Positions 1 through 63,904 of a stretch of 64,000 nucleotides of DNA are shown in pieces (within the stretch, counting starts at the first letter, position 1; each line of letters opens with the position of its first letter). A program made the translations under genes and the position numbers. This stretch comes from Loxodes magnus (taxonomy: Eukaryota; Ciliophora; Karyorelictea; Loxodida; Loxodidae), in the NCBI GenBank assembly GCA_946699065.1, contig CAMPDV010000061.1:1-64000 (forward strand). Reading direction: 5' to 3'. The notes under the pieces are model-generated. The model saw nothing but the letters and a program-made list of their open reading frames with translations. It did not search any database and had not been told where the DNA came from.

Positions 1-9
1 ATAAGTGCG

Positions 10-26769: not shown

Positions 26770-28260
26770 TCATTCTCTCCTCATCATTGAATAAAGCCCT
26801 GGTAATCCAAAATTTAGTGTCATTCCTATAAACATGAGAATATAATAAATTCTTTCTTTTTATGTTTAGAATCTAACTTGTATAATTTGGAATAGGTTGT
26901 TTTTAAGAAATTTCTTATTAAATCTCTTAATGAGATTTATAAATAAATTCTAAAATAGTAATATAACTACCAATAAAAAATGTTCATTCGTTATTTTCGA
27001 TATATTTGCAATAGGCTGTCCTTTACAATCGACTAAAGCAATCATACAGAAGTTGTAATATTTTGTCGAAATCAATATAAAGTATATTAAAACACTATAT
27101 AGCTCCATTTCTGTTTTTATTCCTTAGTATATTAAGAGTGTAGGGCTAATATTAAAAGTTATTACTTTTTTCTTAGCGAAATACTTTCTTTTTAGCTTAA
27201 AAAACATTCTTTTGAAAAAGAAAATTTTACTTTGTAGTTCCATAACTAAATTTAAAGCAACAGTAAACCAGAAATTTTAAGAAGAAATTCCTTATTTATT
27301 TATTATAGAATGTAGTGTTCCTATATAAATAAAATCAAAAGTAGTGAAAAAAAGTAAAAAAACAGCAAAAATACCTTTATCATATCTTCTAAAATATTTG
27401 CTTTTAATTATTAATTAACCAATTATCTTTATAAAGAATATAAATAAGGGAACTAATTGTAAAGTTATTGCTGGGTTTCTTTCTTTTAAATAGGGAAAAA
27501 TTTCTTCGAAAAAAAATTTAACAAGTGAAAAATAAGTTAATATGAACATACCACCAAGAAAAATTTTAAAATATATTCAGGATTATTTTATTATAAGCAA
27601 AAACGAGGCGGCTTCGAGAAAGTTTCCTATCATAAAAGCCATTGATTTTTCATTAAAAAATGTTATGTTTCCTATTATATGTGTTATAAGAGGCATTAAT
27701 GCAATTATGTATAATAATGTACCTCTAAGCTTATTTTTTAATATTAAGATCAAAGAATAATAAATACTCATGCAATAGATTAAATAATAATCACTTTCTA
27801 ATATTTTTGTCATAGTAATATTAATTTTCTTCGAGCATTCTTCAGAACATATCACCTTATTTAAAGTAAGAATCTCTCCATTTTATATTTTCTAGTCGAA
27901 ATCATCCCATTTCTGAATATCACAAAAGGTGTAAAGATTGAAATTTTCTTATAAATAAAATTTTATAGAAGTGAGGGTAAAGAAAAGAAAATAACTAAAT
28001 AAGAAATCAAAAATTCGATTTTCATCTTTGATATCAGCGTCAACCTATAAATCCACAATAGGAAATTCACTATCCAAGGGATTAACTACAATTTCATTTT
28101 CAATTTATTAATCCTCATTTTATTACTAAGAATTTTATTCTTTTTCTTAATTTTGAATAAAAGTGTTTTCCACTACATATTCTGAGATATAAACCTTGAG
28201 ATAGGATCCAGAGTTGATACTTCCACTTTAATTTTTATGACTGAAAGAAGATAATTCCAT
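26770..28260 (-). CDS. Polytopic membrane protein, ciliate family, paralogue A (496 aa)
   Basis: The ATG at 28260 to the TGA at 26770-26772 is exactly 497 codons in one frame, with TAA/TAG as Gln. It aligns end to end with the gene at 49636-51144. Layout: a polar Q/E/N-rich N-terminus to about residue 80, a first membrane segment near 83-102 (FDFLFSYFLFFTLTSIKF), a Cys-containing loop (FCDIQKWDDFD, CSEECSKK), then several more hydrophobic segments, about eight in all. It ends in the conserved NFGLPGLYSMMRRE followed by TGA. Other shared blocks are YIGTLH, ISTKYY and ALVDCKG. I do not recognise the family; a multi-pass membrane role is inferred from hydrophobicity. Its 5' end and upstream region are duplicated in inverted form at 19250-19995. 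Start choice rests on alignment with that fragment. Confidence 0.85.
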
Positions 28261-28830
28261 TTTAAGAAAATTAATTAATTTGTTAGAGTAAATTAATAAT
28301 TGAACAAATTAAATCAAATTCAAGTGCAAGTGCAAGTGCAAGAAAATATAAAGTAAATTGGGTAAATTCTCATTTCTGAGATCTTCTATTTTAAACTTCT
28401 AAAGATAGCTAAAGCGATTTTTAAGGTTTGCAAAATAAAAAATAATAAATGATTTGATATATAATTGGATGGCATCTTTAGAAATGTAAAATAGAAATAT
28501 AAATTGATAAATATTTTTTAAATAAAAGTCGAAAAAATTAAGAAAAATATAAATCTAAAATAACTTAAAAATAATAAAATAATTCCAAATTAAAAATCTA
28601 GTTTGTAAAAAATTCGCTAATTATGTGATAGAGTTATAACCAAAACTATGCTAACTTAATGAATAAAAATTATTATAGTTACTAAAAAAAGGAATTTCGT
28701 ATCTAGGAAGAAAAATGAACTAATAAATATTAATAGTTTTTTAGTTCGTATATTCTAAATGAAAGTTAAATTTGCGATCCAAACACTTTCCAGATAAAAA
28801 ATAAGTAATATTAGATATTTTAAAATGTAT
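28105..28830 (-). repeat. Inverted duplication, right arm
   Basis: Partner of 19250-19995. It covers the first ~50 codons of the membrane-protein gene and ~570 bp upstream. Indels between the arms show it is old. A short hexamer repeat at 28321-28342 lies in this arm but not in the other. Confidence 0.75.
28321..28342. repeat. AAGTGC hexamer microsatellite, 3.5 units
   Basis: The hexamer CAAGTG is repeated about three and a half times just upstream of the gene starting at 28260. It is absent from the duplicated arm at 19.7 kb, so it arose or was lost after the duplication. Confidence 0.9.
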
Positions 28831-31800
28831 AAAATAGAATTTTTAAATAAAAATAGTTAAGAATGGAATTTAGCCAAAAATTTATTTTTAGATTTTGTAA
28901 AAATAAAAATAACAAGCATATCAATTATCTTAGTTAAAATTAAAAAAGTTTGTTAAAAGAAAAATAAAAAAATGGATAATAAAATTTAATTTTTATTAAA
29001 AAGATAATAAACTTTAAAAATTGATGCTTTTTAAGTTATTTGATAATTTTAGTAAAAATTAAATAGAAAATGAGATAATTATGTTTTTTTTTATTTAACT
29101 TATCTTTTTATATAGTTACTAAACATTTAGTTAAATTTAAATAAATTTAAAAAGTTTAAGTTTATATTTTTTAGCATAGATATTCATAAATAAATAAATT
29201 TTATTAACTTAATATTATTGATCTTTTAGTCTTCATCAAACTATTAAGTTTTAATTCTTTAGATTAAAAAATAATATCCAAAATATAATATTAGAATGAA
29301 AGCTTTTTTAAATGTAAATTTACTAAAATGGAAACATAAAAACTAGAAATACAAGAGTTTCCAGAACCATAAAATAAGTGTTCATATATGAGAATTTTTA
29401 TAATAAAATGACATCACAATATTAAATTTTATAATTTTCTGGAAATATCTTTCACTTTGTATTCCATCAATTGGTTTCTTATATTTTTCATCTTTATACA
29501 ACCTTTTATGATTATTAAATTAAATTTAACAAAAAAATTTGTGGTACCTTCAATTTTCAGAATATGTTCTTCCAATTGAAGGTATTATATTGTTTTTAAA
29601 TGTTATTGTATATCAAGTTTATTGCTCTTCAGAACTAATTTTCTAGTTTAGGTTTTTTTTTCTCTTCTAAGTATTTCCTTTCTTGTTCATTTTCAAGCTA
29701 ACTTACCTTTTATTATTATTTTATAAAATCTTAAATTTTTTTAAGTTTAAATGTTTTAAATTATTATTTTCTTAATTAAAAAAATTATTTTACAGATATA
29801 TACATTTTATTCTTAAAATTTAAATTTTCTTAAGTTTAAAATAATTTTATTTGTATCTACCTTTAATAAATTTATTACTTTATCTTTTTTAATAATAAAA
29901 TGTGCCTATCAAGTCTATGCACATTAAAAGATAAAAATGTTATATGCAATAACATTTTTGCTCATATTTATAATATTAAACTCTTTTATTTTTCAGATTC
30001 TATTTTACATTAAAATAAAAGAAAATAATTCATAATTAACTTAAATTATTATTTATAAAATTATAATTTTATAATTTTACTCTTATGATATTATTTAAAT
30101 TTATTTTTTGCATACCTATTTTAAAGAACCTTTTATATCTTTTTTTAATTATTTCTTGCTAATTTTGCTTTTAAGTTAAAAATATTAAAAAAATGGAAAA
30201 TTCTATGATTTTTGAATATTTTTTAAATTTTCTGTTTTTATAATATTAAACAATAAGAAGAAAATTAAAATTTAATAATTTTAAAATATAAAGAATTAAT
30301 TAAAAAATACATTTAAACTTATTTTTCTCATTTAAAGCTCTTTATATCTATATTTATAATTAAAATAACTAAATTACTAAAATAATACATTAAGTCTTTG
30401 AAAAATATTAAGTTAAATTACATAATAATATTTGGTAATAAATGATTTTATTATATAAATTTACTTATTTAAATTTATTATTAAATTTAATAATAAATTT
30501 GTTTATAAACTGTTTTATATTTTATCTTTTTGCTTTTTTATTTAATCATTTATTTTCAAGTCTTAGATTCAAATTTATGATAGAGAAATTAATTTGTATA
30601 TGTCAAGTCATTCAATTAAAATAATTTTATGTTAATTTTAATTTAAATAGCAATACCATAATAGAACATTAAAGTTTAAGACTTTAATTTTTAAGATAAA
30701 TTTAAATTGTATCTAAAGATTAAATTTTCATTAATATTTTGTTTTATATCATTTTATTTAAATTAGAAGCTAAAACTCATTTTTAAATATCTTCAATTTA
30801 ATAAAGCTACAAAAGGAGATATAGTTCTATATTTTAAATTAAGAATTAAGAATTTTATAGCTCTTTGCTATAATAATTTTTCATTACAATCTAAGAATCA
30901 AAGATTTAGATCATTATATTTTTTTATTTTCTCTAGCTTGGTTTCGATTATTTTTCACGATATTTTTACTTTTTGCTTTTGTTAGAAAAATAAAGTTAAA
31001 AGATATTTATTTTATATTTTGATTTTATCTCCAGTTGAATCATTTAGATAAACTTATAGCTTTTTACATTAATATATCAAAGTATTTTATGGTTGAAACA
31101 TTCTTTTAATTAAAAAATTTTTTTATCCTTAAGTTATGGATGTATTTCAAATGAACTACTACTGTTACACTATTAATTCTTATTTACTTTTATACATTTT
31201 TTTAATATTTTACCTATTATTCCCTCTAAAAACTAAAAATTCAGCTCTAATACCCGTTCATTTTATTTTGCTATTATTAAAGTAAATACGATAATTAATT
31301 AATGAATATAAAGTTTTCAATAGATATGAGGCTAAATTGGTTTATCTCAACTTCGTTTTCTTTTTCGTTTTTTTTATTTATTTATTCTGAAATTTTATAT
31401 AATTAAATTAATAAATCTAGAATTCCCTTTTTTAGCTTTTGATTTAATATTTTGTAACATCCCACGATAGAGTTGATTGGAAGAATATATTTAGATAATA
31501 TTTTTATTTACTATATAAAATAAATTTGTCTAGATATAGTATACTTTTAATATAAAATTAGTTATTATAATTTTTTGTCTAAATAATCAATTTTGTTAAT
31601 CATCCAATTGTAATTCTTTCAAATTAAAGAATGAACATTTAAAATTTGCTTCTATCTGAATTTTATAGTTAATACTAATTAAATAATTAAGAGAACAAAC
31701 AAAATATATATAAATAATAAAATATTTTTAATTAAAAAAGTTAAATTAGATTTAATGAAATGCTTATTAAGTATATTCTTTTCATTTTATAATAGAAATA

Positions 31801-33409: not shown

Positions 33410-33414
33410 AAAAA
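33410..33414 (-). terminator. Pol III T-run terminator after tRNA-Leu
   Basis: Five T residues on the minus strand, one base past the 3' end of the tRNA, which is the usual RNA polymerase III stop. Confidence 0.8.
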
Positions 33415-33415
33415 T

Positions 33416-33494
33416 GACAGCGGTGGGATTTGAACCCACGCCCCGGAAGACTAGCACCTGAAGCTAGCGCCTTAGACCACTCGGCCACGCTGTC
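33416..33494 (-). tRNA. tRNA-Leu(CAG)
   Basis: A complete cloverleaf on the minus strand, 79 nt without CCA. The acceptor arms GACAGCG/CGCTGTC pair over 7 bp. The D arm has GGCCGAGTGGTCTAAGGC, which includes box A. The anticodon stem CTAGC/GCTAG encloses TTCAGGT, giving anticodon CAG. An 11-nt variable region (short for a class II tRNA) is followed by the T arm GTGGG-TTCAAAT-CCCAC, which includes box B. No intron is present. It decodes CTG as Leu. Its G+C content stands out sharply from the flanks. Confidence 0.97.
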
Positions 33495-34155: not shown

Positions 34156-35153
34156 TCATTGCTTTACTTTTAGCAACAACTCAGTGTTCAAAGTTACTAA
34201 ATCAATTTTCATTACATAGTAATAATTTTGATCTTGAATTTATGAGTACATCCAACTGTATCCAATATTATTCAAAGTTTTGACTGAAGACATGCGAACA
34301 CAACCCTCTGGAATATATTTACTTTTTGTTCTATTACTTTCTAATTTATAGATTCTATTTGAATATTATAAAGATTCTTTATTGAAACCTCCTAATATTA
34401 CAAGAGGCTCTAAAACGATTGCTGGAAGAAGAGTAGACACAGGCAGATTTCCTTATTCGATTCACTTATCATTCTTAACATTATATTTCAGAATTGCTTT
34501 TATAGTTCTTTTGTTTATTCCTCCAAACAAGTAAATATTTTCTTCTTAGTTGTCTGTCTACAGAGTTTATCCGCTGATTTCAAAAGGCATTTATGAGCAA
34601 AGTATCCATCCAGTATCATTACTTAAATTTAGCTTTTCAACTGATTTTAATTAAATACTTTAATTAACATTTCCACCTGCAACATATAAAAATCCTTATA
34701 CTGCTTCAATTCCAAAATCATATCTTTCTTAGTTCAAATCACTCATTTTTGCGCATTTTCCATTTTAGCCTAATTATCAAGTAGTTTTAGCAACCTTTTA
34801 CTCAACTTCACCTCCAACTAAATATATTTTATTCTAGTAATCAACGCTTCCAAAGCAAAAAGGTACTTTCTAATCAATCAAAACTTATTTCATTTCTTCA
34901 GCTTCAATATCAAACATAAGTAGCTTTATTTTTGCCTAGAAAATGTATTTATATACTTAGATTATCTTTATGACACTCTCGTTACAATCTCCCAAGTTTC
35001 TGCATGAGAACTGTTGTTTTTCTCTTCTTCTTGTTCTAATTGAGCAATAGATTATCTCAATATATCTAAGTTTTATTATACAACATAGTTATTAGAAAAT
35101 AACTAGAATACTTCTCTTAATAGTTTTATCAATTTTTCTTTCTTTTCTTCCAT
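34156..35153 (-). CDS. Kelch-repeat protein (paralogue A)
   Basis: Minus strand, from an ATG at 35153 to a TGA after LLLKVKQ. Kelch blades are clear: KIYLVGGEVE, FLYVAGGNVN, NIYLFGGINKRT and VILGGFNKES, with the linking KYNVKNDKWIEQGNLP. In that last block the canonical Kelch Trp is encoded by TGA (34462-34464). Upstream lies a polar, probably coiled-coil N-terminus (NLDILRQSIAQLEQEEE). Kelch domains form beta-propellers that bind partner proteins; no catalytic domain is seen. The N-terminal frame and the propeller frame differ by one base near 35000-35030. This implies either a very short intron or a frameshift, and the 998-bp span is not a multiple of three. The gene diverges from the two-TM gene starting at 35780. 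Confidence 0.75.
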
Positions 35154-35779: not shown

Positions 35780-38002
35780 ATGTCGTTAAGTCTTATAAGC
35801 TATTTAGATATTTATCCTACACAAATCTCTTTGTAATACAAGAGAACTAGAGGGTTCTATACGACCTTTGGAGCTTGCTTATCCATATGCACATATGTAC
35901 TCTTAATCCTTGCTTTTATAAATATGGGATGAGATATGATGTTTAGAAAGAATCCAAACGTTTCTTATTAGACATTATAGTAAGAAAATAGACCTTGACA
36001 TTATATTGGAATTAATAATTACAGCTTTTCATTTGTCTTATCGAATAACATTAATAGCATTTTTCTTTCACCTTCTTATTTTACCTTTGAAGCTAAATAT
36101 ATAAAAAAGGATTTTCTTAACTTTTCTTATCCGAATATTTCTACAAAGTAATGCAATCTAAGTAATTTCAAAGGCTTAGAAGCATAATATAATAAGCCAA
36201 GTGAAAATCTTAATCTAAATACCTGTTTGGACTTAGAGAGTTTTGAATTAGGAGGGTATTATAATGAAGATTAGATGAGTGGAATATAGATAAAACTATA
36301 AATGTGCTAAAATTCTACAACGTCAAATGTTAAATGCGCTCCACTAGAAGAGATTGAAAAAATTGTTCAAGGAGGCCTTTACTTTTTTATATATTTCACT
36401 GATAAAATTATCGATATTTAAAACTATGATAATCCTATATAAAACAAGTTCAGTGGCTTCTATTGAATGCTTGATATTTATACTTACAAGTTGACTAACA
36501 TCTTTTTTAAGTCAGTAGAAGTAGAAACTGATAGTGGCTTTATTATAGAGGATTTGCAGATTGCACGAGATGTTATAATAGAAAAGAGCTAAGTAGATTC
36601 AATTTCAAACAATAAGCTAGACAATCCTTATATTTTTGAACTTGATATATTTTCCTTTGATAATGTTGTTTAGTATAAGAGAAGATACAAAAAGATCTAA
36701 GATGTAATCTCACAAATTGGTGGTGTTCTGAGTATAATAATTATAGCATGCTAGTTTATGGTAAAAATCTATTCGAAGTTTGCTTTGGCATATATATTTG
36801 TTAATGATATTTTCGATATTTAAGATTCTGCAGGAAGTGAAGGTGAAAAAGAAGCTAGTGAAAGAGATTAAATCAACAAAATCAATTCTATCCAAAGAGT
36901 AGAGGATTTTGCTTAGGTGTCTAAGGAGAAGGCTGAAAATGAGAAAGGACAAGAGTATTTTTAAGAAAATTCGGAGTTCAAAAACGCTCTCAAAAAACAG
37001 ACGAACAAATAAACAGCAATAGTAGCTCCTTATTCAGATGAGAAAGAAACTCACTTATAGATAGAAAACGAAATTAAAGCAACTTATTAATTAAGTCAAA
37101 GCTATGATTTTAATAGCCAACAACCTACTAGTAAAGAAAATAAACTAATTGTGCTTGGACCAAAAGAGAATTTGATAGAAATGAAGTAAATGGAAGAAAC
37201 TTCAAGTAACTAACTTGAAAAAACTTTTGGTGATACTTTAGATTCTAGCCGAAAATTGAATGAAACTTAAAATTTAATACCATTAAATTCAATCATTACA
37301 GAAGAAAAGGATTAACTTTAAAAATCACAGCGAGAGAATATTAAGAAAAATTGCGAAGAAATGAGTCAAGAAAAAAACTTAAAAGCAAGCTAGAAGGTTA
37401 TATCATCTTCTTTTTAAGATAAATAGAATCAAAGTTATACATTAAATATTAGAAAGGCAAACGAATAAATGAACTAGTATTTGAAAAATAAAACATAAAA
37501 AGCAGATAACCTGAAATTAAATTTTTTCAAATACTATTTTTATGAATTTATTAGTATATTCAAAAAAACGAAACATCAATAAAAATTTAAAAAGAAAAAA
37601 CGAAGGGAAATTGAAGCTTTTGATAAAGCAAGAGAGACTTTTTATGATTATTTAGAAGCAAACTTTTTAGTTAAAAAGATGATTGAAATTGATAAGTTAA
37701 AAGCCATCTTCTTTAATGAGGAACAATTAGTAGTTTTTAACTATATATCTAAACCAAAAATAAAAATTTAAAAATCAGTTTCCCAAAGCAAAAATGACTT
37801 CACTTTGACTCCATCTCTAACTTACAACAAAGACGCTTGAGAGTAAAACTATAGAAACATAAAAGAGTTGGAAAAAGTTTTTGCATTCTGTAATGAAGTT
37901 ACCAATAAAAAATAAGTAAATCCAGTAGATTTGAAATTATATAACTTGTTAGATAAACAAATTCTCAAATACGTAGAAGTGGAAAAACTTAATAAATCTT
38001 AA
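35780..38002 (+). CDS. Large two-TM protein, ciliate family, paralogue A (740 aa)
   Basis: One frame runs from the ATG for 740 codons with TAA/TAG as Gln and TGA as Trp, and aligns along its length with the minus-strand gene at 57892-60081. Layout: a short N-terminus (SYLDIYPTQI), a membrane segment at about 32-55, a long loop with ENRPWHYIG and LGGYYNED, the block GFYWMLDIYTYK near 215-245, and a second membrane segment at about 312-333 (GGVLSIIIIACQFM). A long Q/K/E-rich tail, probably cytoplasmic, follows, ending in conserved helical blocks (FDKARETFYDYLEANFLVKK, ELEKVFAFCNEV). In RPW the Trp is TGA in both paralogues. Function is unknown. The end is odd: the paralogue stops at TGA, whereas here the matching place reads TAA at 38000 and the first in-frame TGA is at 38180, 60 A/T-rich codons later. 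Confidence 0.87.
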
Positions 38003-38178
38003 CATTAATAAAGATTTATTTCTTAATAAATATAAAATAAATATAAAATTATTATTTAAGATATATCTCTTTAAATAATATTTCAAGTATATATAAGTAT
38101 TTAATATAGTATGATCAACTTTTATTATATTTAAGAATAAAATTGTTGGTGTATTTGTTTTAGTATTTTTATAAGTTA

Positions 38179-38547
38179 ATGAAAGTGCTTTTTTATAAAA
38201 ATCTAGAAGGTTTTGAAAATAAACAATTACGAAATAAGTTAAGTAAACTTAAGAGTAGTGTTAGTTTTGTATCATTTCGGCTCAATATTAAGAGAACTCT
38301 GATTGGAAAAAGAATTGGAGGGAAATAATCTGAGATATTGTGCAGTTTTAGTAGAAAATTTAAGATTGAAAGTTATTAGAATTTAATTTCTAGATTAATA
38401 ACTATAGAGTTATTATTATACTATGATATTCCGTTGAAATAAAACAAAAAAAGAATAACAAAATGGAGAAAATATATTGCTGAAAAGAAATAAAATATTA
38501 TGATTTTAAATGGATCCTAAGAAATAACCAACTAAAACCTAATATGA
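38179..38547 (+). CDS. Possible small protein, 122 codons
   Basis: An ATG at 38179 is followed by 122 codons before TGA. It begins MKVLFYKNLEGF and is basic with a hydrophobic stretch (LITIELLLYY). It lies between the end of the two-TM gene and the coiled-coil gene and overlaps the latter's start in another frame. With TAA and TAG sense, a frame this long is expected by chance fairly often, and there is no paralogue or motif, so support is thin. Confidence 0.25.
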
Positions 38548-40603: not shown

Positions 40604-41009
40604 TAATATCGGCTGAGGTCAGGAGAACTAGTAGGTAATCTTGTGCAGCGTATGCTGCATTGTGAGTAAACTCACACTAGATGCCATTAAGGGGAAGGGT
40701 AGACAAGCTAGAAAGAGATAAGCCTAATTTACTCGAGGATTCTTGCTAGCAGTATGAATTTTTGCTGACGGACCTTCTAAATAATGACTTTTTTAAATAA
40801 TTCTTATATGGATCTTGTTCAAGAAGACAGGAACATTTGGTTCAAGATTCAAGAATAATCTCTAATAAGTAGGTTTCCTATTTGGAGAAGCTAATGTGAT
40901 TCATTGGAAAGCTAAAATTATAACAAAAAGTATAGGAACATTTTTCTTAATATTAATTATTAATATTGAAAGAGCTGCTAGCCAACGAGATGGTACGCAC
41001 TCTATAATA
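40604..41009 (+). mobile_element. SINE-like element with LINE-type 3' stem-loop
   Basis: A ~400-bp block with much higher G+C than its flanks. Near its 5' end GGCTGAGGTCAGGAG is loosely like a Pol III box A. Its last 41 nt (40969-41009, AAAGAGCTGC...CTCTATAATA) match the 3' ends of the LINE (49370-49410) and of the element ending at 63904. It has no convincing ORF. A Pol III-like head plus a LINE tail is the standard SINE layout. The middle includes segments resembling the 63.5-63.7 kb tail region (AGACAAGCT, a TTCTTG-containing block). Flanking A/T sequence makes a target-site duplication hard to call. Confidence 0.7.
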
Positions 41010-41278
41010 ATATTTATTTATTCTAAAAATAATTTTATTTAGTTTAAATTTTTACTTTTTTATTTATATTTTCTTTATTATTTTCTTGACATTGCTGTTT
41101 TCTTTTATGCATATTAAATTATTTTTATTTTTTATGTAATTAGAGTAGTGATCTAAGTTTAATTAATTTACATTTACTTTTTTATTGACTATAAAGAGTT
41201 TTTATATAAACATTCTAGAAAAGGGTTCTTATTAATATATTAAATAAGATTTAAATTGCTTTATTTCATAATAATAAA

Positions 41279-42235
41279 ATGCAAAGGTAAGAAAGTTAAC
41301 TCATCAAAGTTTTGTTCTTAAGAAAGCTTTTAAGGAAATCTTAGCACTAAAAAGGAATTTTAATAATAGGTAAACTAGGAATAGGTGTATTCAAATATGA
41401 AATATGCTCTAACCTAAAAATTTTAAACTTCCTCAGCATTTCTACTATCAAAGCATACTCGAATCAACTGATTAGTTATTAAACTGGTAGAAATAGTTTC
41501 TAGTGCAAAGCTATTGAAATAGAAAAGATTAAGTATTCTACTTTTGTTGAATAGATTTATTGTTAGACTTTAATAGTTTCAGGAAATTTAGTTATTGGAA
41601 TAAAAAAGTTTATCGTATGTGACTAATGTGATGTCTCTTTGAATCTTGAAATGAACTATAAAAGATTTTTTCATCAAACTAATTTCGATAAAAGAAGTTT
41701 AACTTTTATTCTTTCAGGAGCTTTGAAGCAAAGCGAGTTATATAAAGATTTATCAGAATGTGAAGTTTTTAATATGAGAAACAAGAAATTTAAGAGCATA
41801 AATTAAATAGAAACTCCTGCTGCTTATTTTGGCTGTGACTAGACTGCCTAATAACTTTATATCTTTGGAGGATTTTCTTTATAACTTAATAAAGCTTATA
41901 ACATAATACAATTTTACGATAAGGCTTAAAATAAATGAGTAAGGAACTTATCTAAGTTAACGAAAGAAGCAACTACTTCAGCTGTTTATATTTCTTAGAT
42001 AGATTCCTTTCTAATCTATAATAATGGCTACTAAAAGATAGACACTTTGCTATTTGATTTAAAGAATATCACTAAGTGAGATGAGATATTTACTATAGAT
42101 AATATTAGTCAAACTCGACCAGTTTTAAGTAGAAACATTGTATTTCATTTTGATCGATTTAGTGAATTATATTGTTATGATTTGGAAAATAAGGATTGGA
42201 AAAAAGTAAAAAATTTGAAAGATAAAAAAACTTGA
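41279..42235 (+). CDS. Kelch-repeat protein (paralogue B, 318 aa)
   Basis: From the ATG at 41279 one frame of 318 codons runs to a TGA at 42233-42235. The C-terminal half has clear Kelch features: QLYIFGGFSLQLNKAYN then QFYDKAQNKWVRNLSKL, and DLKNITKWDEIFT, ending YDLENKDWKKVKNLKDKKT. The Trp codons in NKW and TKW are TGA, in the position where Kelch blades keep an aromatic residue. The N-terminal half is hydrophobic/basic with a CDQCD pair and is less clearly Kelch. It belongs to the same broad family as the minus-strand gene at 34156-35153 but is not a close copy. A protein-binding beta-propeller is inferred. If the final TGA were also Trp, the frame would run on into A/T-rich sequence, so I take it as the stop. 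Confidence 0.7.
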
Positions 42236-43379: not shown

Positions 43380-43588
43380 AGAGAAATTGATAAACTATAG
43401 GGCTAATTATTAAGAGTAGTGCTTTATTTTATGAGTTTTACCAGGGATATTCAATAATTAGTCAAAATTTAGGACTTAAAATAAAGAATATTTTCCATTT
43501 TTTAGTTATAAGATAGAAATTATATAGCTAAATAAATTAAAGAGCACTTGCGAGATGGTAAAATACGATGGGATTTTATTTTATATAT
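43380..43588 (+). pseudogene. Decayed RING-type gene copy, part upstream of the LINE
   Basis: The last ~100 bp before the LINE align at the DNA level with 53915-54000: GTTATAAGATA..., GAGCA.TTG.GAG and GATGGGATTTTATTTT against AATGGGATTCTATTTTG. A one-base indel changes frame between the KExLR and GILF motifs. Similarity continues beyond the LINE at 49425. It is a broken duplicate of the gene relic at 53-54 kb into which the LINE inserted. Confidence 0.55.
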
Positions 43589-43708
43589 ATATTAAAAAAT
43601 GGTTAGCTTCAAGAAGGGTTTTTATACCACCTCCTCAGAGTAGGAGAGAAAATCTGAAGCACTTTCTTTTACCACGTCTTTGCTTCAATTATTCCAACTT
43701 TCTTTATT

Positions 43709-44795
43709 ATGCATGGAAACCAGACTAATAATGCAAGACCTCAGACTACGAAGGACCAAACTAATTGACTGAACAAACACGAAATAATAGAACGAATAAT
43801 AGATAAAAAATAGCAATATACCTATGGCTGGTCAGACTTTACTAAAAGGAGGAGCACAAAATAAGAAAGGAATGTGGTAAAAAAAGTAAACAACCTAAGT
43901 AATAATTTACAAAATAATGAACAACTCATTTCAGCCAACGTCCCTGAAGAATAAATGTAAAGGATCTACTAAAATGCCAATGATGATTTATCAGAAATGG
44001 TGGCCGAAATTTACTTTAACCATTACTTGGAAAACACTGATTTAGTAGAGAAAAAGGCCAAAGACTAAGAAGTCATGCAAGTGTTTATAAATCAAATATG
44101 GAAGGATTACGGACAAGCAGTGGCGAAGTTTATAGTGAAATAAAACGGAATTGTATACTTGGTATTTAACAATGAAGAAAGATACTAACATTTCACTTAA
44201 TTCAGGGAATGAACATTCAAAGGAGTTAGAATCCCTATCTAAGCTAGAAACTAATTTTAATATTTTGACATTCATAACTACCCAATTTACTTCATAATTA
44301 ACGAATACTAAAATATGAAGGAAGTAATGGAAATAATAAGATAATATGGAAAATCAAGAAGAGAGATATTGCATACATATCCAAACAGAACAATGCTAAC
44401 AGGGAGCAGTGTAGTCTACCTAGATTTAATGGATGTAGACGAAGCAAAGAGGATACCAGAAATAATAGATTTGAATGGAAACAAAATGAGAATATAACAC
44501 CCAATAAATTTTATCTGCTGCCTATGTAAATTGAAAGGGCACACAGACCAGCAATGCAGAAGGGTGGAAGCAGCAAAAAGGAAAAAGCTACATACAAGAG
44601 AATTAGAGATGCTTGAAGGAGAAGTTATTTTAGCAATAAACAAACCAAACTTTGAAGCAAATCAAGCAAATAAGAGGATAATTGGAGAAGAAGAATAAAT
44701 GATTATAGAGGAATCAAGGGAAGAAGAGAAGGAAAAAAATGAGGAGAATAGAAAAATAATTAAAACAACTAAACAATTAAATAATAAAAAGTTTT
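43709..44795 (+). CDS. LINE ORF1, nucleic-acid-binding protein (split by insertion)
   Basis: Begins MHGNQTNNARPQ; the other copy reads MDGNQTNNARPQ at the same ATG, which supports this start over the ATG at 43599, which is out of frame with it. The frame is intact to the zinc knuckle at about residues 270-283, CCLCKLKGHTDQQC (CX2CX4HX4C). Before it lies a globular region (FREWTFKGVRIPIQARNQF, YFIINEYQNMKEVMEIIRQY, SSVVYLDLMDVDEAKRIPE) that may be an RNA-binding fold. After it comes an acidic, charged helix. A 310-bp element then interrupts it. Beyond the insertion, a K/E-rich tail continues towards ORF2. LINE ORF1 proteins coat the element RNA; that role is assigned by analogy. Confidence 0.85.
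44778..44795. repeat. Target-site duplication, left (18 bp)
   Basis: TAAATAATAAAAAGTTTT occurs here and at 45106-45123, on either side of the 310-bp insertion. The other LINE copy has this sequence once, confirming it as the target site. Confidence 0.92.
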
Positions 44796-45105
44796 ATAAT
44801 TGAAAATATGGTGGGAGCTGAGAATGACCTTCGTGACAACACTTTCTGGTTTTATGGCTAGGAGCAAGTTCCTTTCCTGTCGCTGAGAAAGTCCCTGGTA
44901 AGAGTCATTTTCTGAAGGGAACACTTTCTTTGAGATTATCCGCTCTTGGTAGGGGCTTGAAGCCTGGCTGCTCATAGCGATGGAGCTCCCTAGCATCTGT
45001 GCCTGGAGCACAACAGGATATCCCCGTTATTCCATAAAAAGAGAGCGTCGGGCCGTGCAATCGGAAAGGAGTTTACGGTCCAAAAACTTTTTTAGTTGAA
45101 ATTAA
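44796..45105. mobile_element. 310-bp insertion element, G+C-rich, SINE or small non-autonomous element
   Basis: Bounded by an 18-bp direct repeat and absent from the sister LINE copy, so it is a real insertion. It is far richer in G+C than anything near it and has no coding potential that I trust. TGGCTAGGAGCAAG near 44860 is loosely like a Pol III box A; no good box B is seen. The ends have only a trivial inverted match (TAATT), and an 18-bp duplication is long for most cut-and-paste transposons, so LINE-style insertion of a SINE is favoured. It lacks the 3' stem-loop of the other short elements, so it may use a different LINE. No other copy is in the window. Confidence 0.85.
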
Positions 45106-45123
45106 TAAATAATAAAAAGTTTT
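45106..45123. repeat. Target-site duplication, right (18 bp)
   Basis: Second copy of the 18-bp repeat that flanks the 310-bp insertion; see 44778-44795. Confidence 0.92.
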
Positions 45124-45731
45124 TTATGCTAAAAGAATAAATAAAAATTATTTTTCATCAAAATGGAATTGGACATATGTAAGACAGAGGGATAGAGAAA
45201 TGTTCAAATAATTAAATAAAATAGAAAACAATCAACTAAATAATAAGATTTACCATAAAGCAAATTAGAGAAAAGGATAGGATAAGTGATGGAAAAAACG
45301 CTATACCCTAACAGAAGAAATAAGAAATAAACAAAATAGTATAATGGAGTATGTCAGGAAAAACGTGAATAAAGAAAAAAAGCAAAAAGAAATAGAACAA
45401 ACTCAAGAAGAAAAAGAATAAGATGCAAGATAAAAGTGAGAAGAAAGAAGAAAGAAGTAAATTGAAGCAAACTTCAATTAGAATATACTATGCTAAGAAA
45501 CCGAAAAATAAAAATGAACAATTATCCAACTACAACTAATAGGAAAAAGAAAAAGAAGAAGATTAGAATAGATAAGAAGAAGGAAAAGGTAGATAATAAG
45601 ATGAAAAAGATAAAAAAGGGGAAAGAACTAATAAGGAAAATAATATGGAAGCATAGAATGTTAGATAAGAAGAAAAGGTGGAGAAGGAAGATGAATAAAA
45701 AGAAGAATAAGGTGAAGAGGAAGTAGAGGGA

Positions 45732-48700
45732 ATGGGTGTAAAAAAAGATTAAGAATAAGTCATAAAAATAGGGACAGAAAATGTTAGGGGAGTAAGAAGT
45801 GCAAAAGAGGCACTAGCCAAATTCATGACTCGAAAAAGTATCCACATAATGGCAATATAAGAAATTTAGATTGAAGACTAAAAAGATATGTGTAATATAG
45901 CAGGATATAAAAACTTAATAGATGTGGGATCAAAAAAAGGAAAAAGAATATCATTCTATATTAGAAACGACATATGTTAGGAGATCAGAGAGATATAGAA
46001 TGAAGTAAACCAAATGACGCTTTTTGGATGAGCGAGAGTAATGGCAATAGAAATAATGAAATAACTAGCAGTAATAAATGTCTACGCTCCTGTTGCAAAT
46101 GAAAACGAACATTATGAGCCTTTCTATAATTTAGTGAATGAATTTAAACTATAAGCAATAGAAAAAGGACTTAATATAATGATAATAGGAGACTGAAATG
46201 CGCACATAGAAAAATGACTGCCAAAGAAAACAAACTCAGCAGGAAAGAGAATGGCATAGTTTATGGAACAGAATAATTTAATATGCCTAGACCCAACTGA
46301 AATAGGAACCTTTATTCACTAAAACAATGAGTATAAAATAGATTACTTTTTAATCGAAGAGAAAATGAGAGAAAAGGTGATAAAAAGTGATTTTTATTAC
46401 TCATACGTAATAGGAGACCATAGGCCTAGTATTATATAGTAAAGATGGGTAAAGAAGTAAGAAACCCATAAAAGATAGCAAAAATAAATTACTTACTATT
46501 AAAGAAAAAAGAGATATAAGAAAAATTTTAAAGATTTATACAAGAAAATCTCTAAGAAGAAGAAATTGATAACCTAAGCGGCACATAGACTTATAAATGA
46601 TGAAAGAAAAAGATATAAGAAGGAGTTTAAATGGTATGTGGAAAATTTAAAACATAAAACTCTAAGATATATAAATATTCAGAAACAACAAAATAGTGTA
46701 ATAAAATCTTTAGAAAATGCAGCAAAAAATTAAAATAAAGGGTAAAGAACAGAGAACAAATAAATGAAAATCAATAAAACGAGAATCAAAGAGAATAGCA
46801 AAGAGTAAGATAAGAGTACATTTAATCAAGAAAAAAAGATAAAAGAAACTAACTAAACATATTTATGGACAATGTAAATAAAGGAAGTCTAACAGATATG
46901 TGGAAGAAACTAAAAAACTTACTTAATAGAAAAAATAATTAATGAGTACCCTTATCAAAAGAAGATGTTAATACTTTCAGGGATGAATGATAGAAACTGT
47001 ATGAAGATGGCGATAATACGTTACCAACTAAATTCTTAAACAAGAGATAAATAGTGATAAAAGAATATGAAATTTGAGGAAACATCAACTAATTGGCGAA
47101 ATGAAAAGCAGGACCTGATGAAATACAAGTAGGTACAATATTAGCAGGCGGGAAAAAATTAACAGAAATAACATGTAAAATGATAGCTAAGATGATTTAA
47201 GAGGGAGTAATACCTTAAGAGATGAAATAATAATACATAATATTAATATACAAAAAAGGAGGACAGATGAACCCGATGAATTATAGACCAATCTCTTTAC
47301 TGAATCATGCTTTAAAAATAGTAGATGCATGAATTTTCTAGCAACTATAAGGATATCTGCATAATGATGAAAGCGAATATTAATATGGCTTTAAAAAAGG
47401 AAAATCATGCTCACTATAAATTTTCAACCTAAGAACAGTATAGGAATGATCAATACGGAACAAAAAAGATGTTTTCGTAATATTTGTTGATATTAAAAAA
47501 GCGTACGACTCGGTGCAAAGAAAATATATATGATAAATCCTAAACGATCTAAAAGTATCGGAATAGATAATTAAACTCCTAGCAAACTTCTACTGTGAAG
47601 AAGAAATTAAACTTAAAATCAATGAATAAATAGCAAAATCATTCGCAACAAATAAAGGACTAAAACAGGGAAGCATAACGTCGCCAAAACTATTTAACTT
47701 AATAATAGCAAGACTCCTCCATAGCTTGGAAGATTAAAAGCTAGGAATTACGATAGACTTTAAAAACGAAGAGGGATGAACACAAGAAATATATGCAGGA
47801 TGTTTTGCATATGCAGATGACCTAGCCTTAATAAGTGAATGAGAATAATTAGAGGAAGTAATCAAAAATTTAACCTCATGGGCAGAAAAATACAAATTGG
47901 AAATTGCAGATAAAACAAAATGAATGATATGAAAAGCAGCAGAAAATAGAAACTGAGAAAATATAGGCAATACTATTGAGGTGGGAAATTTAAGAATCGA
48001 AAGAGTAACGTCCTTTTAGTACCTAGGGCATATAATAGAAGAGACCATCAGTTTTGAAAAACACATGGAGTTTAGACTAGAAGCAGCATAAAAGATGTAA
48101 ACATGAATATTGGGTAAAATAACAATGAATAAGGGATTAGCACCATATAATGCAGGAATAATGATAAAAACGTCGTAAGCTCAGTATTCAACTATGGGAC
48201 AGAAGTTATCCTTTATTGTGAATAATTTATAGGAAAATAAGTGATGGAGCAATTAGAAATAATATAGAGAAGATCTTTAAGAGCAATCATAGATGCCCCT
48301 TTCTAAGTGTAAAATGAGATGCTAGAACACAAGTTATAGTTTATGAAATTTAAACATTACCTATGGCAGAAAACGCTGAGATTAAGAGGCAGACTAATAG
48401 GTAACTAAGGAAAAACAGTAGATGGATTAATGTTCGACCTATGTAAAGAAGAGAACTTTATATTTGAACAATACTGTACAACAATAAAATTTAAATTTAA
48501 AATTGAAGACAAAGATATATTTATAGATGATGGTAATAATAACCAAAAAGGGAAGAAAAACATTAATCTTGCAATTTGAGAACATAGAGTATACGTAGAA
48601 GATAGAGAAAGAATGGAGTAAATGATAACAACTCTACAGTATTGAAAAACATGATTTGATGAATATGTAGTAGGACCACCCAACTACCTGAGATACAATA

Positions 48701-49359
48701 AAAATAGAAAAGAAGAAATATGCTTCATATTTAGAATAAGAACGAGATGTAATGGGAGCCAGGATTGTTTAAAAGAAAGACACCTAGTTGTGACTAGCAA
48801 ATGCCCTTTCTGTAATGATGCAAGAGAAAACGAAAGGCATATCATAGAAAAATGCTCAGAATACAAAGAAAGTAGATAAATATGTATTTGAAATTTAAGA
48901 ACAATAGGAGTAGAAAGACAAGGAATGGAATTATTTGATATAATATGAGGTACGGCAAAATTCGAAAAATTAATTAGAACCTAAGAAGAGTAAAAAAGAG
49001 CTAAAACTGACTTGATAATAAAAGATTATATCAAAAACATATTAGAGAAAAGAAAAAAAGGATACTTAGAAAAGAAAATTGAATGAAGAAAAGAAACAGG
49101 AAAATACTATAGAGCAGGAAAAGGATAATTTTTATGAGTTTATAAAAGCTTGATTAAGAAGAAAAGAATTAGAAACGAAAATTAGCAAAGTATGTAAGAA
49201 AAAATAATGGACGCTTGTAACAAAGAATCAATAAAACGTAGATAGATAGAAGACAGAAGAACAAGAGATAATGAAGAAGAAAATGATAAAGATATGGAAC
49301 TAATAAGAGAAGAATTTCTATTACCTGAAGGTTTACTTGAAGAAATAGACATGTATTGA
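45732..49359 (+). pseudogene. LINE ORF2: endonuclease, reverse transcriptase, CCHC (broken copy)
   Basis: The ATG at 45732 may not be the true start, since an acidic E/K/Q-rich stretch upstream (from about 45540) is in the same frame. Apurinic-type endonuclease motifs: TENVRG, MAIQEI, NVYAPV, GDWNAHI near 46190 with Trp as TGA, YKIDYFLI, and YVIGDHRPSI. Reverse transcriptase: WKAGPDEIQVG, MNPMNYRPISLL, FVDIKKAYDSV, LKQGSITSPKLFN and the catalytic FAYADDLALIS near 47804. The C-terminal domain has CPFCNDARENERHIIEKC (CX2CX8HX4C). It ends near the TGA at 49357. The endonuclease, RT and C-terminal domains lie in three frames, so at least two frameshifts have occurred, near 46855 and 48178. Endonuclease type and the terminal CCHC place it among APE-clade LINEs; the exact clade needs a tree. 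Confidence 0.93.
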
Positions 49360-49369
49360 AACATTTATT

Positions 49370-49410
49370 AAAGAGCTGCGCACCAACGAGGTGCTACGCG
49401 CTCTATAATC
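49370..49410 (+). other. LINE 3'-terminal stem-loop
   Basis: AGAGC pairs with GCTCT, GCG with CGC and CACC with GGTG around an AACGA loop, with small bulges. The same 41-nt unit ends the elements at 41009 and 63904, with paired changes that keep the stem. In several LINE/SINE pairs such a 3' structure is what the reverse transcriptase recognises. Confidence 0.85.
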
Positions 49411-49424
49411 AAATTTATTTATTT

Positions 49425-49575
49425 ATTATGTGTTTTGTAGGAGAATCATAGAAGATGGATATGCTTGGAGATTTAAACTTAAACTATAAAAAGTTGATTT
49501 CGTAAATAAATATAACCAAGAAAAACTTAGAAATATAACTTTTTTTGCATCCTTAGTTGAAGGATTTTTGCTCTT
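49425..49575 (+). pseudogene. Decayed RING-type gene copy, part downstream of the LINE
   Basis: Just after the LINE the s equence encodes CRRIIEDGYAWRFKLKLQKV, matching the CIFKRIVEDGQDWRFQFKIQ block at 53995-54060. It is the 3' half of the gene copy whose upstream part ends at 43588. It runs into the 3' side of the convergent membrane-protein gene. Confidence 0.65.
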
Positions 49576-49635
49576 TATTTAAATAATAAATTAATTTATC
49601 TCTATAAAAATGTAAAATTTAGTTGCTAATCTTTT

Positions 49636-51144
49636 TCACTCTCTCCACATCATAGAATAAAGTCCTGGCAATCCAAAATTTATTGAAACGCCAAATATCA
49701 TTACGACGTAGAAAAATCTTTGCTTTAAAGAAGTTAATTTAAATTTTATCTCTCTAAATGGCGAGCAATTAGCTTTTCTCATAATTACCTTTATAATTAA
49801 AACTATTAAAATCTGAATTAGCAACATAAGTACTAGAAGAAAATGTTCGTCTTTAATTTTTGACATACTAACAATAGGAAATCCCTTACAGTCAACTAGA
49901 GTAGTCATACAATAGTCATAATACTTAGTTGATATTAGTAAAAAGTAGATTAAAATGCTATATAATTCCAGTTCCGTTTTTAAGCCATAATAAACACAAG
50001 TAGCAGGGTTAATTTTCATTTTGTATTCCTTATTTCTAGCAAAAATATATTTTTTTATATAAAACACAAGCCTATTCAGTAGTCTATTCAGTAGAAAAGT
50101 TTTTGCTATTAAATCCATTATAAAACTCTAAGTCATAGTAAATCAAAATGCCATAGAGTTAATTCCAACTTGATCAATTAAGGTATGTAATGTTCCTATA
50201 TAAATATACTCGAATGTAATAAAGAACATTAAGATAATTGCAAGAATGTTATGTTCATACCGCTTGAAGTATCTGTATCTAAGTAACAAATTACCACCAT
50301 ACTTTATCAAAAATAAAATGAAAGGAACTAGTTACAAAGTTGTTTCTGGTTTTTCAGCCATCAAATATGGAAAAATTGTTTCAAAAAAAAATTTAACTCC
50401 AGAGAAATAAGTTAATAGTAATAAGACAGCCGTAAATATTTTGAAGTATATCAATGATTGTTTTATGATTAGAAAAATTTCAGCTACATACATGAAATTA
50501 CCAACCATAAATGCGAATGATTTTTTGCTGAAAAAAATAATATGACCCACTAAATGATTAAAAAGCGGTATAAATGTCAGAGTAATAATTATACGACTTT
50601 GGAGGTTATTTTTAAGAGAGTAAAGCATCAAAAAGTAAACGTTTATGCAATAGAAAAAGTAATAATTAGATTCGAATAATTTAGTCATTACTAGATTTGT
50701 TATTTTTTAGCACTCATCAACACAACTAATCTATTCTTGTGTTTCAATCACCCTATTCTTCACTTTTTGGTCGAAACTTTCTCATTTTTATATATCACAG
50801 AACGTGGAAAGATTAAAATGATTCATTATGAAAAACTTGATAGAAGTGACAGTAAAAAAGAAAAAAATTGAAAAGGTAAAATCGTAGACTCTATTTTCGT
50901 CGTGGATATTAACGCTATTCTCTTCAGTTCAATTTACTACAGGAAATTCAGTTTCTAGAGGCGTTTTCATTATTTCAATTTCGTTTTAGAAATCAAATCT
51001 GAGTTACTAGAATGTTTTCTCTTCTGATATTGATTCTTTTTATTGACTTTTATTGTCAATAGCACTTTCTGATAAATTAGCTTGAAGAGAGGACTCTGAA
51101 TTAATAGGTTCTATTTATACTGATTTTCTTGTTAAAGATTTCAT
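49636..51144 (-). CDS. Polytopic membrane protein, ciliate family, paralogue B (502 aa)
   Basis: ATG at 51144 to TGA at 49636-49638 is 503 codons in one frame. It aligns end to end with the gene at 26770-28260. A polar N-terminus is followed by a first membrane segment (YDFTFSIFFFFTVTSIKFF), about seven more hydrophobic segments, and the conserved end NFGLPGLYSMMWRE-TGA. Key positions prove the code: IQKWESFDQ uses TGA for Trp (50782-50784) where the paralogue has TGG, and CAA for Gln where the paralogue has TAG; MAFWFT again has TGA against TGG. Function is unknown. The LINE lies just beyond its 3' end, in the opposite orientation. The gene looks intact. Confidence 0.88.
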
Positions 51145-53069: not shown

Positions 53070-54110
53070 AAGCTTTTTGCTTAGAAATAAGATGCTCACA
53101 AAAATACTTAGATTTAGTACTCTGCTTAGTATCAGTTTTAAAATGCTCTAACTTGTTTAACTCCCTATGTGCTAAATTAATATTAGCACTAGAAATTTGA
53201 TTAGTAGGAAATCTTAGAAAATCAATAATTAATATACGAAGAATTGCTTAAAAGTCTAGAAATATATGAGTAGTAGTTAAGTTAAATGGATAAATAACTT
53301 ATAGAATATCAAAATAAATCCATGAAGAGACAGAAAATAAATAATAGCTAGAAAAAATAAAATTTGGTGATGATGCTGAGATTGTCTTAGATTTATTAAA
53401 ATGAAAAGCTAGAAATAGAATAAAATTAATTTCAAATGCTCCTTAAAAAAGTATATCATAAAGTAGGAAGCTAATCAAAATTAAGATATTTAAGCTACTA
53501 TAATTTTTAGTAAAATTAGTAAGATCAAATGCAATAATAACTATGAAATGCTAGAGTAAATTAAGTTTCTTATCCACAAGATTAAAATAATAAATAAACT
53601 AAGATTAATGCATAAAATGCTTCAACAAAAGCAAAACTTATTAGCTTTGACTTTTAGTCATAATTTTTGCAAGGATTGCTTGCTTAACTGAATCAGAAGT
53701 TAAACTGAAAGGAATTTTATTATTTTAGAAGAAGAAAAAAGGAAGGATTGAAATAATACGAATTGCAAAGTTTCTTTAAAAGACTTTGAAATAGAAAATG
53801 TAATTGGTAAAGAAATGATTACTAAGCGAATAAAATAATTGAGGAATAGTAATAGCAAAATAATAATAAAGATAAGTAGAATAATTCAATTATTCTTGCT
53901 GCAATTGCGTGCTGAAGTTATAAGATACAATTTTGATAAAAAACTATTTAAGGAGCAATTGAGAGGAGGTTAAAATGCTAATGGGATTCTATTTTGTATT
54001 TTTAAGAGAATTGTAGAAGATGGATAAGATTGGAGATTTCAATTTAAGATATAAAAAGTTATTTAATAAAGAAAAAACTTAGAATAGTTAAGAGAGTGTA
54101 TATATACAAA
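53070..54110 (+). pseudogene. RING/RBR-like gene, probably degenerate
   Basis: A Q-rich coiled-coil segment in one frame (ILENQQLIYEELLKSLEIYE) precedes, in another frame, a RING-like piece: LTFSHNFCKDCLLNWI near 53650, like the H-x-FC-xx-C core of RING fingers. This is followed by NTNCKVSLKDFEIENVIGKE, which resembles the end of RING1 in RBR-type ubiquitin ligases. Several Cys expected in a working RING or IBR domain are not seen, and the frame changes at least once, so I favour a relic; introns are the alternative. The C-terminal block EDGQDWRFQFKIQKV recurs next to the LINE at 49.45 kb, so the gene exists in at least two copies. Confidence 0.4.
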
Positions 54111-57891: not shown

Positions 57892-60081
57892 TCATTCTTC
57901 TTCTACATAATTAAAAATCTTTTTGTCGATCAAATCAAATAATCTATTGTCTATTTCATTCTCTGTACTTTTATTAATAATTTAATTGCAAAATTTAAGA
58001 ACTTTATCCAAATCTTAAATGCTTCTAATATTTTCTGCTTCATTTTTATTCTTAAACATCTAAGAAGGTAATAGAGTAACTTCGTGTTCTTTCAATGTTT
58101 CTATCTAACCTATTTGGATTTTTGGTTTAGATACATAATTAAAAACTGCCAATTACTCTTAATTGAATAAAACATTTTTTAATTTTTCAATTTCGACCAT
58201 TTTTTGAATTAGAAAATCCATTTCCAAATATTAGTAAAACGTATCACTAGCTTTATCAAAAAGTTCCATATTCTTTTAGGTAGCTTTTTTAATCTTCGAT
58301 TGTCTATTCTTTGCTCTAAAAAAGTTAACGAGCTTGTAAAAATAGTAGGTGAAAAAGTTGATTTTTAAAGGAGTTTCATTATTATACTTAGTTTTTAAGT
58401 ATTTTTTCTTCTATTCTTTTGAGATTTAAAATATAAACTTTCTTTTATGCTTCTATATATTTTGCATTGTTTTAGGATTTTCTTATTCTAGATTTAAAGA
58501 TCATTCTTAATCTGTTTTATTTAAATTTGACTCACTATTTTCTCTTTGTGACTTTAAAATATAGTAATTTTCTTCCTTTTAAAGAGTATTTAAAATATTA
58601 AATTTTTTTATTTCATTTTATTCTCTATCAGACTCAGAAATATCCTATTCTAGTAATGTCATTTATATCATTTTATCTGAAGAATTTCCTACTTATTGAT
58701 TTTAATTTTATTCTTGTAATTATTCTAACTATATTATTGAAGCTTCTTTTAAGCTAGTTTATTAGTTTGATGAGTCATGAAATTTAAACTGCTCATTATC
58801 ATCTTTAAGTTTCTTTTCTTCAAAAAAATTAGTTTAGTTTATCTCTTAAAGTTGATCTGAATTTTATTTTTAGTTTTTTCCTTTCTTTCTTGCCTTTTTT
58901 CATTCTTATTTTTCTTATAAAGGCATTTTTTAAATTTCAGAATTACAACAAAGTTTACCTTCATTTCCTGAATCCAGCTTTTGATCAGTTTGTTATAATG
59001 GTATAACTTTTGCTATATTCAAGCTTTAATTTTCTTAGCAGTCTTCTATATCAAAAATATCGTTGATAAAACTTTTTGCGAAAGCGTATTTCGAATATAT
59101 TTTAATCAGAATCTTGCTTACAATGAAAATTGCATTAAGAACACCTCCTAATTGAGAAATCACATTTTGGAATTTTTAATATCTTCTCTTGTAATGGAGT
59201 TAGCTATCAGAAGAAAAAACCCATAGCGCAAACACATCGGTAGAGTAAAGATTAATGTTTGATATAGAGTTTATTTATTATTTCTCTAGAGTAGTATCAT
59301 GAATCACATTTTTATTCTCTAATAAATATCCATCGTCAGTTTCTATTTTGATAGGTTAGAAAGCTATGTATCCTTATTAAAAGGAATAAATATCAACCAT
59401 CCAGAAATATGCGCTAATCTAGGTTTTGATTGGATTTTCATAATTTGTAATATCTATAGATTTATCAGTAAAGATGACAGTAAAGTAAAGTTAGTTTTAT
59501 ATCATCTCTTCAATTTCACTCAAAGAAGCACACTAAACTTTCGTTGAATTCTCGCACATTTTTACTTATAACTTCACGCTTTAGGCTTTTTTCTCATCTA
59601 TATATCCTCCCAATTCAAAGGATTCTTAGTCAAAACATTACATAAGAGAAATATTCTGGAATTCATTTTAGGAGTATTCTTCAGAGTCTTTAAAGGAATT
59701 AGCATCACACTTCTTGGTTGGAATTTTCTAAAAATATCCGTCATATTAATCTTATATATAGTATCAAGCCTCTAAGGTGAAATAAGTAGGAGGAACTTCA
59801 ATAATTCCTTAAAATTTAGAAAATCCAAACGAAAAGCTAAAATTATTTGTCCCAATATACTATCAAGGACGATGATATTGTTTAATTGTTTGAGATAACG
59901 TTTCTGGGTTTCTTCGAAGCATCATATCTTGTCCTAAGCTAATAAATGAAAGCAAAAAAATTATATAAGTGCAAAGTGATAAAAATGCTCCAATAAATGT
60001 ATAAAATCCTCTAGCTCCCTTATACAGAAAGCATATTTATGTTGGATAAATATCTAAATAGCTTAATAAGCTAGATGCCAT
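57892..60081 (-). CDS. Large two-TM protein, ciliate family, paralogue B (729 aa)
   Basis: ATG at 60081 to TGA at 57892-57894 is exactly 730 codons with no break. It aligns along its length with the gene at 35780-38002: SYLDIYPTQI, GFYTFIGAFLSLCTYIIFLL (membrane segment 1), HRPWQYIGTNNFSFSFGF with Trp as TGA at 59863-59865, WMVDIYSFQQG, HYKRRYQKFQNVISQLGGVL leading into membrane segment 2, FINDIFDIED, then a long Q/E/K-rich tail with KQEWKKARKK (TGA again). Conserved C-terminal helices (FDKASDTFYQYLEMDFLIQK, DLDKVLKFCNQIINK) end in NYVEEE-TGA. The two-TM plan with a large loop and long charged tail suggests a surface or vesicle membrane protein; function unknown. Confidence 0.88.
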
Positions 60082-63863: not shown

Positions 63864-63904
63864 AAAGAGCTGCAATCTATCGTCATGTTACGCGCTCTAT
63901 AATC
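63864..63904 (+). other. LINE-type 3' stem-loop
   Basis: Third instance of the 41-nt terminal unit; AGAGC pairs with GCTCT as in the LINE, while the inner stem is more divergent. See 49370-49410. Confidence 0.8.

Follow-up and report, generated by a model that had tools for sequence, protein, structure and literature searches.

Sequence signs of a context-dependent ciliate nuclear code in which TGA would mean both tryptophan and stop, and a gene with an apparent TAA end

The 64,000-nucleotide (nt) stretch of DNA analysed here, called the window throughout, appears to use an ambiguous, context-dependent ciliate nuclear code of the karyorelict type (NCBI table 27), in which TGA would specify tryptophan (Trp) inside genes and stop at their ends, and TAA would specify glutamine (Gln). 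Working from the sequence of the window only, we give this reading a probability of about 85%; the figure refers to the double meaning of TGA together with TAA as Gln, and overlaps with a Condylostoma-type code that shares both features and adds TAA and TAG as stops. The double role of TGA is supported because aligned columns in two pairs of paralogues and in two kelch genes favour Trp, because purifying selection continues downstream of the internal TGAs, because no candidate intron spans 10 of the 12, and because stop-like codons are depleted near gene ends. The code itself has already been described; the point of interest is an exception to it, a gene that seems to end at TAA.

The paralogous pairs comprise genes A and B and genes C and D, for which the frames, the first ATG (a putative start in each case) and the ends were taken from the sequence. 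Gene A (26773-28260, minus strand; 496 sense codons), encoding a hydrophobic, membrane-like protein, contains an internal TGA at 27579 (codon 228) and would stop at the TGA at 26770-26772. Its paralogue B (49639-51144, minus strand; 502 codons) has internal TGAs at 50931, 50784 and 50145, and its TGA stop (49636-49638) occupies the same aligned position as that of A. Gene C (57895-60081, minus strand; 729 codons), with internal TGAs at 59865, 59766, 58902 and 58503, ends with the TGA at 57894-57892, where the guanine-plus-cytosine (GC) content is 0.213 before and 0.093 after the codon. Its paralogue D (35780-37999, plus strand; 740 codons) has internal TGAs at 35930, 35996, 36464 and 37838. 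The original prediction had listed four frames of these lengths, a common TGA end for A and B and a TGA end for C, and we recovered them all, with TGA following the sense codons of A, B and C, and TAA following those of D.

Residue identity is 49% between A and B and 42% between C and D. Matching the window against itself gave expectation values (E) of 6e-129 (A/B) and 7e-88 (C/D), and the ratio of nonsynonymous to synonymous substitution rates (dN/dS) was 0.216 and 0.239, respectively, both rough values; with these figures the likeness within each pair is beyond chance. Nucleotide differences at codon positions 3, 1 and 2 numbered 275, 198 and 150 in A/B and 407, 325 and 224 in C/D, over stretches slightly exceeding the genes. 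Judged by these substitution patterns, both pairs are constrained genes. A Pfam search of A-D returned no family at E 0.1, so the proteins belong to no named family by that search, and PDB profile searches produced a single chance match for one pair (E 0.38) and none for the other. AlphaFold, given two sequences, modelled the gene A protein with a mean predicted local distance difference test score (pLDDT) of 36, and relatives of A and B sought in viral contigs were not found. A truncated copy of the region upstream of A and of its first ~50 codons lies at 19543-19995, 75% identical and then diverging.

The paralogues were compared codon by codon. Leaving aside the end TGAs, and TGA 51183, 26610 and 38180 and TGG 49518 and 38147, which lie outside the coding sequences, A-D contain 12 internal TGAs, three of them opposite TGG, two opposite each other and seven opposite L, L, Q, K, K, F and E. 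TGA 50784-50782 of B faces TGG 27909-27907 of A within FCDIQKW, and TGA 50145 of B faces TGG 27270 of A within FWFT, both exchanges as predicted; to these we add a third, TGA 36464 of D opposite TGG 59403 of C, and a TGA common to C (59865) and D (35996) within RPWxYIG. Elsewhere, TGA 50931 of B is opposite TTA (Leu) in A, TGAs 59766, 58902 and 58503 of C are opposite Lys, Phe and Lys in D, and TGAs 35930 and 37838 of D are opposite Gln and Glu in C. The same genes contain only five TGG codons, three opposite TGA, one opposite AGG and one opposite GAT, giving 12 TGA (in 2467 codons) against 5 TGG as Trp codons. The predicted exchange of TAG with CAA was seen at two aligned sites (codons 123 of A and 126 of B; codon 64 of both D and C), and TAG faces CAG at one more (codons 437 of A and 444 of B).

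For scoring, the pairs were realigned with all three stop-like codons masked, which kept any assumed meaning of TGA, TAA or TAG out of the alignment. At the 10 TGA sites opposite ordinary codons Trp scored 14.9 bits, the next residue being Gln at -1.3, and at the 83 TAA sites Gln scored 21.2 bits, with Arg next at -0.3. These scores support TAA as a Gln codon and TGA as a Trp codon inside genes. Purifying selection points the same way: dN/dS is 0.19-0.32 downstream of every one of the 12 internal TGAs and 0.07-0.39 upstream of them. Since a premature stop would release the sequence that follows it, constraint beyond each TGA argues that these codons are not premature stops.

Consistent with a tryptophan reading, two kelch genes carry TGA on a kelch Trp. 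In kelch gene 1 (34159-35153, minus strand, with a putative first exon), this is TGA 34464-34462, which is opposite W in all four printed PDB chains, two of them aligned through weak domain matches; another TGA of this gene has no W opposite it in the printed alignments. In kelch gene 2 (main exon 41627-42232, plus strand, with a tentative 5' part) it is TGA 41936-41938, opposite W in both printed chains, and TGA 42077 falls outside the printed alignments. The two parts of kelch gene 1 are shifted in frame, which requires an intron of length 3n+2; eight GT-AG candidates have 14, 20, 20, 20, 23, 32, 38 and 41 nt, 34966-34985 (20 nt) being one of them. Probable TGA stops, placed where the coding signal ends, are at 34156-34158 (gene 1, minus strand) and 42233-42235 (gene 2, plus strand).

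The ends of the genes support TGA as a stop as well. Six of the seven inferred ends are TGA, those of A, B, C, both kelch genes and the last frame of a long interspersed nuclear element (LINE) described below, and D is the exception. The double meaning of TGA that had been predicted is upheld by these ends together with the masked scores and the kelch columns. GC content falls across the end TGAs of A and B from 0.25-0.31 to 0.15-0.19 (0.247 before and 0.147 after in A); past this common end the similarity fades, with 13 of 37 aligned residues identical and dN/dS at 0.57. Within the final 20 codons of the seven frames, TGA, TAA and TAG together occur in 0 of 140 codons, compared with 181 of 3111 upstream (Fisher 0.00027). 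TAA alone accounts for 0/140 against 123/3111; for TGA alone (0/140 against 23/3111) the numbers are too small to test. The codons CAA and CAG are not depleted there (2/140 against 62/3111, P 0.47), nor are six AT-rich or common control codons. With the paralogue-anchored genes A-D only, the count is 0/80 against 136/2387 (P 0.0099). Published work treats depletion before the stop as a sign of codon ambiguity near gene ends; it affects UGA in Parduczia and UAA, UAG and UGA in Condylostoma magnum (excerpts of PMC4967479).

If TGA were simply the sole stop, as in NCBI table 6, the internal TGAs would be premature stops in decaying or germline-only copies. TGG turns into TGA by a single transition, and decayed-looking duplicates do exist in the window, among them the truncated copy of A and the LINE, which is spread over three frames. 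Against this, A-D stay in frame over 496-740 codons despite one to four internal TGAs each, the low dN/dS persists after every one of them, and C and D share a TGA at a conserved site. Moreover, a mutational null for premature TGA expects 34-42% of them opposite Gln, by way of TAA, and 1 of 10 was observed; the same null gives P 0.0001-0.05 for at least 3 of 10 TGAs opposite Trp, or 0.005-0.47 on the assumption that every TGA now present was once TGG. We regard decay under table 6 as very improbable. Still less credible is the idea that the TGAs are removed from the transcript as part of short introns, a possibility already raised with the original prediction. Two of the 12 (codons 72 and 121 of B) do fit a GT-AG stretch of 15-30 nt; the other 10 fit none, and the stretch at codon 121 would delete residues that match A (CDIQKW), where the paralogue aligns without a gap.

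The more serious competitor of table 27 is a Condylostoma-type code (table 28), in which all three codons would be both sense and stop, TGA being the commonest stop and TAA, maybe also TAG, terminating near the end of the mRNA. Gene D would be such a case. It has no TGA where C stops: C ends Val-Glu-Glu-Glu-stop, and D has Val-Glu-Val-Glu at that place, followed by Lys-Leu-Asn-Lys-Ser and then TAA (38000-38002, plus strand), the next in-frame TGA coming only at 38180. In none of the frames does a TGA begin between 37933 and 38111, and a small frame error therefore cannot provide D with a nearby TGA. The 60 codons from 38000 to 38179 have 11.7% GC and contain 12 TAA or TAG (P 4e-5), and look non-coding. 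In the other six frames, TAA is found in 0 of the last 120 codons against 96/2391 (P 0.008), as expected if eRF1 (the release factor) is still able to read TAA there, and depletion of all three codons is the pattern of C. magnum noted above. On the other hand, this is one gene only, TGA stands at six of the seven ends, and no end is TAG. Loxodes magnus also shows depletion, of UGA and UAA some 20 codons before the stop, and yet has UGA as its sole stop (excerpts of PMC11441545). Sense UGA is rare in C. magnum (0.042%, excerpts of PMC4967479), compared with 12 of 2467 codons in A-D. Finally, heterotrich introns measure 15-16 nt (excerpts of PMC11441545), and a lone intron of that length cannot explain the frame shift of kelch gene 1, since 3n+2 nt are needed. 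Taken together, table 28 in full appears unlikely, although less so than either of the preceding alternatives.

On this single case, gene D either stops at TAA, which table 28 allows and table 27 does not, or has lost its stop. Tentatively, and with the odds against it, we consider an intermediate between tables 27 and 28, in which UAA would have kept or regained a stop role close to the mRNA end and would mean Gln at other positions, with UGA as the main and UAA as a minor stop. This would also account for the depletion of UAA before the stop, both here and in L. magnus. If UAA does terminate gene D, the published statement that karyorelicts use UGA as their only stop would need revision, and UAA depletion would acquire a direct cause. 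In the open-licence papers searched, we found no UAA stop reported in a karyorelict.

Returning to the table 27 reading, several results weigh against it or against parts of it. The main one is gene D, whose frame of 740 sense codons runs into TAA 38000 and not TGA, an apparent departure from strict table 27; the original prediction did not mention this end. The synonymous rate is 1.7-1.9 in both pairs, near saturation, which makes dN/dS rough, and in C/D the ratio is 0.07-0.14 before the first TGAs and 0.26 after them, the N-terminal part being more conserved. When G>A changes are made ten times faster, the mutational null reaches P 0.05, or 0.47 if all TGAs were once TGG; decay is excluded by the constraint, not by the aligned columns alone. 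At the strictest cut on local identity (0.45), four TGA sites remain, with W at 3.4 and Q at 1.9 bits (a lead of 1.5), and three TAG sites, which favour His. For TAG, the 24 masked sites gave Lys 8.5 and Gln 7.2 bits, and because Gln written as CAA or CAG is itself often opposite Lys in these proteins (9 of 34), Gln is likely for TAG without being proved, Lys being inseparable from it on these sites. Of the predicted assignment of both TAA and TAG to Gln, the TAA half is borne out and the TAG half stays short of that. The ends of both kelch genes and of the LINE were set where the coding signal stops, a choice that favours a clean tail and somewhat biases the larger depletion count. Searches of the window with Rfam and ARAGORN found no rRNA, no tRNA-Gln with anticodon UUA or CUA and no tRNA-Trp, the checks recommended with the original prediction and run here on the window. 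The sole tRNA found is a tRNA-Leu with anticodon CAG (33415-33494, minus strand). No frame scanned matched eRF1 in Pfam, no search by name having been made.

One argument of the original prediction we do not retain, that full-length frames exist only under this reading. The longest open runs inside A, B, C and D are 268, 212, 287 and 457 codons if TGA is a stop, and 99, 163, 57 and 62 codons under the standard code; open frames were rejected as evidence for the code, because table 27 has no fixed stop codon and leaves every frame open.

The predicted agreement with the known karyorelict code of L. magnus and Parduczia sp. is otherwise seen in UGA as Trp inside genes and as stop at their ends, in UAA, and probably UAG, as Gln, and in the depletion before the stop, which in L. 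magnus affects UGA and UAA and here covers the three codons together. TGA is commoner in A-D than in Parduczia, for which 0.12% is given (excerpts of PMC4967479). The Condylostoma code resembles that of the window in the Gln and Trp meanings, all ambiguous there, and differs in how rarely UGA is used as sense. Blastocrithidia and Amoebophrya likewise use all three standard stops as sense codons (excerpts of PMC12153298 and PMC6394959, respectively); in Blastocrithidia, however, UAR means Glu, UGA means Trp and UAA is also a stop, unlike the window, with UAA as Gln and TGA as the main stop. We consider it probable that the DNA comes from a karyorelict, and somewhat less so that it comes from Loxodes itself, as had been proposed. 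In line with that proposal, the excerpts of PMC11441545 report for L. magnus abundant 5-6 kb LINEs with PF00078 and PF14529, a combination matched here and not unique to L. magnus, and much tandem repeat, matched here by 174-bp units over 17 kb. The same excerpts put most introns at 16-25 nt, where the candidates in kelch gene 1 span 14-41 nt. They also give 33.5% GC, a higher value than the coding GC of 0.24-0.27 in A-D; this difference and the apparent TAA end of D count against the match.

In the proposed mechanism, TAA and TAG would be translated as Gln, and TGA would be read as Trp within the coding sequence but would terminate towards the mRNA's 3' end. According to a published model (excerpts of PMC4967479), translation would be the default at ambiguous codons, eRF1 prevailing just in the vicinity of the poly(A) tail. 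If a stop-like codon in the final part of a gene carries a danger of premature release, selection would leave the last 20-25 codons clean, as seen here. Codons with both a sense and a stop meaning make it clear that where a codon lies in the mRNA governs its recognition as a stop, and the window adds a clean genomic example of this rare, known code, with TGA outnumbering TGG as the Trp codon.

The LINE copy occupies 43587-49423 (plus strand), about 5.8 kb by borders set from its flanks, and encodes an endonuclease (PF14529, 2e-11), a reverse transcriptase (PF00078, 1.9e-33) and a zinc-knuckle-like C terminus, each lying in a different frame and read separately; divided in this way, it is probably not intact. 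The reverse transcriptase frame, which adds to the evidence for the code, has 12 TGA and 1 TGG in 397 codons. R2 has W opposite two of its eight aligned TGAs and L1 opposite none, and TAA 47381 is opposite Q in both. Relatives of the reverse transcriptase sought in genome contigs were not found. The last frame probably ends at TGA 49357-49359 (plus strand), just ahead of a likely 3' end motif: AAAGAGCTGC, followed ~20 nt later by GCTCTATAAT (ACTCTATAAT in the copy at 40958) and then by T-rich tails, occurs at 40958-41026, 49359-49427 and 63853-63921, and probably marks the 3' ends of at least two kinds of LINE copy. The flanks of the LINE (43539-43586, 78% of 50 nt, E 6e-4; 49424-49510, 82% of 87 nt, E 2e-17) align with the continuous stretch 53950-54074, apparently an equivalent site that lacks the insertion.

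Profile searches with Pfam over many other frames, with 29.2-34.1 kb and several minus-strand stretches left out, gave weak, sub-threshold matches only. One of these is a RING-like segment at 53640-53700 (plus strand; HNFCKDCLLNW, with TGA at the W; PF00097, E 0.0064, sub-threshold). RING proteins often carry Trp at the position of that TGA. Among the best domains the residue opposite is W in two chains and another residue in two others, and the best PDB matches had E 0.045 (to a non-RING protein) and 0.14 or worse; this TGA was not counted as evidence for Trp.

Two inverted duplicates link distant parts of the window, 17173-18915 with 43589-45676 and 21256-22181 with 61718-62638. Their pieces share 90-96% identity (76% at one edge) and are interrupted by short indels and one of 328 nt; neither has a codon-position bias, and they are uninformative on the code. 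The first apparently represents the 5' portion of the LINE and adjoins a satellite. This satellite, a word of which was sought in viral contigs and not found, fills positions 1-17012 with an array of a 174-bp unit (69.0 + 28.8 copies, 99-100% matches), broken by one shorter register of 130 bp at 11878-12137.

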